Below, piece by piece: positions 29,564 to 30,407 of a stretch of DNA of 64,000 bases. The stretch comes from Kitasatospora setae KM-6054 (GTDB lineage: Bacteria; Actinomycetota; Actinomycetes; Streptomycetales; Streptomycetaceae), in NCBI RefSeq assembly GCF_000269985.1, contig NC_016109.1:5979001-6043000 (forward strand). Direction: 5' to 3'. The stretch's first letter is position 1, and each line of letters starts with the position of its first letter. The notes below the pieces were generated by a model. That model ran no database searches. It worked only from the letters and a program-made list of their open reading frames with translations, and was not told where the DNA came from. Position numbers and translations under genes: made by a program.

Positions 29564-29581
29564 TGTCAACCATGGTTGACA
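29564..29581. promoter_or_regulatory. Palindromic operator 1
   Basis: TGTCAACCATGGTTGACA is a perfect 18-bp palindrome that covers the -35 hexamer TTGACA of the HTH gene. Confidence 0.75.
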
Positions 29582-29605
29582 CGCCCGCTCGCGTCAACCT
29601 ATGTT
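29576..29605 (+). promoter_or_regulatory. Leaderless promoter of the HTH/Clp-N operon
   Basis: A consensus -35 TTGACA (29576-29581) and -10 TATGTT (29600-29605) are 18 bp apart; the start codon ATG 29612 is 6 nt after the -10, so transcription should begin at or next to it. Both hexamers lie inside the palindromes. Confidence 0.7.
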
Positions 29606-29609
29606 GACA
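29592..29609. promoter_or_regulatory. Palindromic operator 2
   Basis: CGTCAACCTATGTTGACA matches operator 1 at 14 of 18 positions, lies 28 bp from it, and covers the -10 up to 3 nt before the start codon. Confidence 0.7.
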
Positions 29610-29611
29610 CC

Positions 29612-29842
29612 ATGAGTGAGACGACACGGCTCGCGGCCGACGCGAGCAGCGGCGATCCGGCCACCGGCCTGCGCGCCGTCCGGGCCCTGCGGGACCTGGC
29701 CGACCGACTGGAGGACCTGCAGGTCGGCAACGCCCGGCGCAAGGGCTGGTCCTGGCACGAGATCGCGGTCTGCCTGGGGGTCACCCGGCAGGCCGTCCAC
29801 AAGAAGCACGCCCGGCGGACGGCCGGCGGGGGAGGGGACTGA
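29612..29842 (+). CDS. Small helix-turn-helix regulator
   Basis: A 76-residue protein with a coiled N-terminal half (LRAVRALRDLADRLEDLQVG) and a helix-turn-helix WSWHEIAVCLGVTRQAVHKK resembling sigma-region-4 or MerR-type recognition helices. It has no sensor domain. The downstream gene follows after 1 nt with its own GGGGAGGGGA site. Twin palindromes over its leaderless promoter suggest autorepression, by this protein as a dimer. Similar HTH genes commonly precede Clp-N-domain genes in streptomycetes, as I recall; the regulated process is unknown. Confidence 0.85.
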   Translation: MSETTRLAADASSGDPATGLRAVRALRDLADRLEDLQVGNARRKGWSWHEIAVCLGVTRQAVHKKHARRTAGGGGD

Positions 29843-29843
29843 C

Positions 29844-30407
29844 ATGTTCGAACGGTTCGCGCAGGAGGCCCGCCACGCGGTCACCCGGGCCGGCGCGGAG
29901 GCCCGCCGGATGGGCCACGACCACCTGGGCACCGAGCACCTGCTGCTCGGCCTGCTCGCCCGGCCGCAGGACCCGGCCGCCCGGGTGCTCGCCGGCTTCG
30001 GACTCGACCTGGACGGCGGACGGCGCGCGGTGCTCCACGCGCTGGGCGGCTCCGAGCCGGAGCGCGACGCCGCCGCGCTGGCCGCGATCGGCATCGACCT
30101 GGACGCGGTCCGCGCGGCCGTCGAGCACACCTTCGGCGCCGGCGCGCTGGACGCCCCGCCGCCGGCCCGCCGCCCCCGCCGGGGCGGGCCCCGGTTCACC
30201 GAGCGCGGCCGGCGGGCGATGGTGCTGACCCTGCGCGCGGCCACCGGGCAGGGGGCCCGCCGGATCGAGACCGGCCACCTGCTGCTCGGCCTGCTCCGCG
30301 AGGGCGGCGGAACGGCCGTCCGGGTGCTGCGCGAGCGGGGCGTCGACCCGGCCGCGCTGGAGCGCGCGACGGAAGCGGCGCTGGTGGGCGGCGTGCGGGC
30401 GGCCTGA
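29844..30407 (+). CDS. Stand-alone double Clp N-terminal domain protein
   Basis: A 187-residue protein made of two Clp repeat (Clp-N) motifs: HDHLGTEHLLLGLLARPQD near residues 30-50 and ETGHLLLGLLREGGGTAVR near 140-160. Clp-N domains bind substrates or adaptors at the front of ClpA/ClpC unfoldases, but here the ATPase domains are absent, so it cannot unfold proteins itself. It probably acts as an adaptor, decoy or ligand-binding partner. It is co-transcribed with the small HTH regulator (1-nt gap), which suggests that it modulates or is controlled by that regulator. Confidence 0.88.
   Translation: MFERFAQEARHAVTRAGAEARRMGHDHLGTEHLLLGLLARPQDPAARVLAGFGLDLDGGRRAVLHALGGSEPERDAAALAAIGIDLDAVRAAVEHTFGAGALDAPPPARRPRRGGPRFTERGRRAMVLTLRAATGQGARRIETGHLLLGLLREGGGTAVRVLRERGVDPAALERATEAALVGGVRAA

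Follow-up and report, generated by a model that had tools for sequence, protein, structure and literature searches.

ClpC1 is an antitubercular target, and mycobacterial ClpC2 (Rv2667; PDB 8ADA and 8AD9), in which an N-terminal helix-turn-helix (HTH) is joined to a Clp_N domain without ATPase, is a known cause of potency loss for cyclomarin-type compounds. ClpC2 represses its own gene from the palindrome CGTCAAC-n5-GTTGACG, which is often present twice and lies over the −35 and −10 elements of a leaderless promoter; cyclomarin A releases this repression and is then sequestered by ClpC2 (Taylor et al. 2023, PMC10030653). ClpC2 is induced by cyclomarin and not by ecumicin or ilamycin, though it binds both (PMC12913811), so binding and induction need not coincide. 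In the published work, the DNA binding of ClpC2 was assigned to its Clp_N domain, and the R185A/R189A substitutions in that domain weakened DNA binding; tight binding was lost in the Clp_N domain alone and in R57A (PMC10030653). The crystallized N-terminal fragment, 8ADA, comprises residues 4–72 and was trimmed by proteolysis (PMC10030653). An HTH region in ClpC2 had already been pointed out in the paper on the Mycobacterium tuberculosis antitoxin RelI (Rv2664; PDB 9SDC), which related RelI to ClpC2 (PMC13284704). The "ClpC2" of the Streptomyces ADEP papers is a Clp-ATPase and was set aside as not of the Rv2667 type.

In the window analyzed here, a stretch of 64,000 nucleotides (positions 5,979,001–6,043,000) from the 8.78-Mb, single-contig genome of the soil actinomycete Kitasatospora setae, an operon encodes a 76-aa HTH protein (P0001; positions 29612–29842, plus strand) and, 1 nt further on, a 187-aa Clp_N protein (P0002; 29844–30407, plus strand). 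The pair resembles ClpC2 in its HTH, which is of the same family, in its Clp_N without ATPase, and in the twin GTCAAC palindromes over the −35 and −10 of a leaderless promoter. Unlike ClpC2, it consists of two polypeptides, its operators have a spacer of 4 nt (N4) rather than 5 nt (N5), and its Clp_N protein belongs to another clade and carries an extra half-repeat. Because it lacks three tested features of ClpC2, namely one polypeptide, N5 spacing, and the Clp_N clade, the pair was not filed as ClpC2. It is probably an autorepressed sensor or decoy built on the ClpC1 N-terminal domain and made of two proteins, that is, a two-protein counterpart of ClpC2.

The sequence-only reading had described two 18-bp palindromes, 28 bp apart, over the −35 and −10 of a leaderless promoter. 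Operator O1 (29564–29581, no strand assigned) is a perfect 18-bp palindrome, TGTCAACCATGGTTGACA, with the core GTCAAC-N4-GTTGAC at 29565–29580. In O2 (GTCAAC-CTAT-GTTGAC at 29593–29608, likewise unstranded; GTCAACCTATGTTGAC), the 6-bp arms are perfect and the center and outermost bases are asymmetric, which confines the full 18-bp symmetry to O1. The distance of 28 bp was confirmed as start-to-start spacing. The promoter overlap also held: O1 overlaps the −35 and O2 the −10 of a predicted sigma-70-type promoter, TTGACA-18-TATGTT (29576–29605, plus strand), with TTGACA at 29576–29581, a gap of 18 bp, TATGTT at 29600–29605, and a match of 10/12. This was the sole promoter-like match of the region (1 found; shuffles 0.0), and the transcript is predicted to be leaderless because transcription from this promoter would begin at the ATG (29612). 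The chance expectation per genome, from base composition, was ∼0.1 for single sites and 1e-8 for twin sites; the scan of the K. setae genome returned three perfect N4 sites, two of them at this operon. The one further site, in the rplN–rpsQ gap, is a perfect single N4 palindrome that directly precedes rplN, a gene of the ribosomal protein cluster (K. setae 3556714; 1501–1516 of locus L009) and may be a chance match, which is probable, or a real site. A larger N4 regulon in K. setae was rejected, and a lone N5 site in that genome, which is without a clear promoter, was likewise discounted as part of a regulon and is probably due to chance.

The structure model of the HTH protein had a pLDDT of 89, and its recognition helix spans residues 59–71 (TRQAVHKK). 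Against Pfam, HTH_23 matched below its cutoff, and a Foldseek search with the model gave nothing at E ≤ 0.001, the weak matches being mostly HTH domains. The profile of the split HTHs aligned with the N termini of fused ClpC2 (hhalign) at a probability of 97.6% and an E value of 2.9e-12. The nearest solved HTH was RelI (1.8e-5), which is also small, stands alone, and is related to the N terminus of ClpC2 but has the RelS toxin as its partner where the present protein has Clp_N. At the split loci, residue 64 covaried with the inner operator base: K occurred with C (AC in 309/352 half-sites), Q with C, T, or G, and E with G (48/48). The K/E contrast corresponds to one clade (group B, support 100/100) and is one event seen many times. 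The proposal that the HTH protein reads the twin palindromes is supported by this covariation and by the operators retained at stand-alone HTH relatives that have no adjoining Clp_N gene. A dimer of the 76-aa protein is thus very probably the reader of O1 and O2 and the autorepressor of the operon, as predicted from sequence.

The homology to ClpC2, the covariation of residue 64, and the operators kept without an adjoining Clp_N together point to the HTH as the DNA reader, a well-supported assignment drawn from sequence comparison. The last residue of 8ADA matches V73 of the fused ClpC2 of K. setae, directly before TRQAAQKRF. The structure therefore stops before the recognition helix and does not show the complete HTH, a possible reason for seeking DNA binding in the ClpC2 Clp_N domain. 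The HTH as reader also agrees with the loss of tight binding in R57A and in the isolated ClpC2 Clp_N domain. The effect of R185A/R189A is the chief counterpoint, and the Clp_N domain of ClpC2 may help bind DNA; R189 of ClpC2 corresponds to G in P0002.

The fused ClpC2 of K. setae (244 aa) has its own twin sites in the same genome as the split pair. In the unrooted Clp_N tree, fused ClpC2 formed one clade (support 100/98), and the split Clp_N proteins formed another (90/84) beside ClpC1. A recent fission of ClpC2 was rejected on account of the fused ClpC2 in the same genome and the separate Clp_N clades. ClpC-type N domains thus seem to have been joined with members of one HTH family in two different arrangements; being unrooted, the tree gives no direction.

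The idea that the two genes might always be separated in other genomes was contradicted: the HTH gene lay immediately 5′ of Clp_N in 89/89 homologous loci, the second pair of K. setae included. A close Clp_N homolog was found in 86 of the 298 genomes of the host's family, 51 of these 86 in the host's genus; this is a lower bound because more distant split pairs also exist. At the split loci, the twin operators lie at about −47/−46 and −19 relative to the HTH start. The two-gene core and its operators were constant and the flanking genes varied, which agrees with a self-contained module; a wider operon around the pair was rejected since the neighbors were not constant. Named carriers are Planotetraspora, Modestobacter, Actinoallomurus, Blastococcus, Nocardioides, Winogradskya, Actinomadura, Pseudonocardia, Rhodococcus, and Streptomyces diacarni. 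The literature search found no paper on a split HTH and Clp_N pair, so the view of the module as little described stands for the pair itself but not for its relative ClpC2, which is well described and has a near-identical operator, the twin layout, and the leaderless promoter.

The second HTH and Clp_N pair of K. setae is diverged (about 240198–240981, minus strand, within locus 239258–242416). Its N4 sites, GGCAAC-N4-GTTGAC and GTCAAC-N4-GTTGCT, are imperfect, and its Clp_N protein has no clear repeat 1. A split pair was also present in 6/20 genomes of a family that is probably Mycobacteriaceae (f4); in split pairs from this family (L293–L297), K64 was replaced by Q in most, the inner operator bases were degenerate (AG, AT), and several pairs had GTG starts. 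ClpC3 of Mycobacterium smegmatis, a second small Clp protein reported to bind cyclomarin and ecumicin (Hoi 2023, as cited in PMC10864484), is a putative counterpart of the split Clp_N.

The operator spacer separated the split and fused systems. When exact half-sites were counted and spacers of 0–12 were all allowed, N4 was found at every site of the main split group (121/121) and of group B (20/20), and N5 at every site of the fused ClpC2 loci (42/42). With only GTCA/TGAC fixed and spacers of 0–8 allowed, N4 was found in all 211 outer-motif sites of 109 split loci. Of the 395 genomes of the class covered by an operator-first search, 53 had exact N4 twins and 80 had N5 twins, and the reversed operator pattern gave none in the same search; N4 and N5 twins occurred together in 16 genomes (a count from two lists). 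Among 30 N4 twin loci that were read, all had a stand-alone HTH of the split-pair family (29 by profile, L141 by eye), with Clp_N next to it in 21. Among 30 N5 twin loci, fused ClpC2 was present in 28, and in one the HTH was joined to something else. A single change on the HTH tree explains the N4/N5 state, indicating a clean split between clades rather than many independent events. We infer that, within one cell, the spacer difference would prevent cross-regulation between the split repressor and fused ClpC2.

The Clp_N protein had been read as a two-repeat Clp_N without ATPase. In Pfam it matched Clp_N (8.4e-27) and no other domain, and AAA+ modules are absent from its 187 aa. The AlphaFold model (pLDDT 91) has 10 helices, comprising repeat 1 (4), a half-repeat (2), and repeat 2 (4), so the earlier description holds for the domain and the missing ATPase but not for a plain double Clp_N. 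The extra two-helix half-repeat (residues ∼72–98; 30057–30137, plus strand) lies between repeats 1 and 2 and is conserved across the split family. The best Foldseek matches were M. tuberculosis ClpC1 N-domain structures (TM 0.86–0.87 by target), many of which hold lassomycin, rufomycin, or cyclomarin. Like the ClpC1 N-terminal domain, P0002 has an MFERF start, a double Clp_N fold (TM 0.86 by target), and the cyclomarin-contact residues F2 and F80; unlike it, P0002 is without AAA+ modules, its repeat 2 motif is degenerate, it contains the half-repeat, and E89, also a cyclomarin contact, is changed to V. Position 89 is E in 54/78 group A relatives. By analogy, this ClpC1 N-domain mimic is probably a decoy or sensor for ClpC1 ligands.

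In the circuit that we propose, the 76-aa HTH dimer would very probably bind GTCAAC-N4-GTTGAC at O1 and O2, mask the −35 and −10, and silence its own operon. The co-produced Clp_N protein would mimic the ClpC1 N-domain and take up peptide antibiotics, adaptors, or misfolded chains. More tentatively, Clp_N may touch the HTH dimer, its half-repeat being a candidate contact surface, such that a ligand weakens DNA binding and the operon is induced, the extra Clp_N then serving as a sponge that shields ClpC1. That Clp_N is the missing sensor of the HTH, as had been suggested, is plausible given that ClpC2, a relative made as one protein, works that way (PMC10030653). The other role that had been suggested for it, an adaptor for ClpC1, may also apply.

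The two proteins could also act without such a dialogue. The HTH might be a plain autorepressor and Clp_N an anti-adaptor of ClpC1 or a proteostasis buffer that competes for adaptors or damaged substrates, with neither antibiotic sensing nor a direct effect on the HTH. The mimicry of the ClpC1 N-domain, which is the docking site of adaptors, the loss of E89 in the clade of P0002, and the mild heat induction and proposed holdase role of ClpC2 (PMC10030653) are consistent with this account, but a regulatory link is suggested by the translational proximity and by a constant pairing with a single HTH family, and both functions are linked in ClpC2; we regard it as unlikely. An input through proteolysis appears less likely again. 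Here the HTH itself would be a ClpC1P substrate, a block or overload of ClpC1 would shift its level and make the operon respond, and Clp_N would merely modulate proteolysis. In its favor, a small HTH that has no sensor domain must receive its input somehow, some stand-alone HTH relatives have no adjoining Clp_N gene, and ClgR and PopR are examples of small regulators that the Clp proteases of Streptomyces degrade (PMC9765437). Against it, stabilization of the repressor by a ClpC1 block would reduce decoy expression instead of raising it. The likeness to RelI, which its authors related to ClpC2 (PMC13284704), and the compact two-gene operon could further suggest a toxin–antitoxin-like pair with the HTH as antitoxin-type repressor and Clp_N as the toxic partner. 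This is very improbable, since Clp_N is not a RelS/BrnT-type toxin, a RelE/BrnT-like partner is absent, and derepression of ClpC2 in M. smegmatis caused no growth defect (PMC10030653).

Compared with what has been described, the new elements are an HTH homologous to the ClpC2 N terminus as the predicted DNA reader, a one-base spacer code, and a conserved Clp_N half-repeat. Since DNA reading and ligand binding are split over two proteins, the proposed sensor/decoy pair can give a direct view of the workings of ClpC2-type switches, together with a test of the published domain assignment of ClpC2. The N4/N5 pair offers a natural case in which to see how paralogous repressors that share one half-site avoid cross-talk. 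With two genes and an operator code of its own, this putative second decoy family, which occurs in the probable Mycobacteriaceae as well, could add a layer of tolerance. A joint reading of these data, which we offer only tentatively, is that ClpC2-family repressors have a half-site in common, differ by one base in the spacer (N4 when the HTH stands alone, N5 when it is fused to Clp_N), and through this code form parallel insulated alarm circuits within one cell; the stand-alone HTH would be a portable N4 regulator coupled to several protective genes (a ClpC1-domain decoy, a beta-lactamase-family enzyme, an ABC transporter, and possibly HelR), and ClpC2 would read DNA through its N-terminal HTH and not through Clp_N.

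Genes other than Clp_N were also observed near members of this HTH family. At three loci with exact N4 twins (L149, L150, and L151), the stand-alone HTH was followed by a beta-lactamase-family enzyme instead of Clp_N (PF00144, 5.6e-38 at L150), and at two others (L140 and L141) by an ABC transporter (PF00664, 5.1e-38 at L140). At L160 and L162, where an HTH gene again sits at exact N4 twins, a HelR-type RNA polymerase motor gene lay on the opposite strand, ∼490–880 nt off; the L160 fragment matched NF041254 (4.8e-170), and the link is uncertain. About 244 nt past an exact N5 twin at L169, a 196-aa protein encoded on the minus strand carried the same HTH motif with a non-Clp_N domain and is possibly another fusion of the HTH family.
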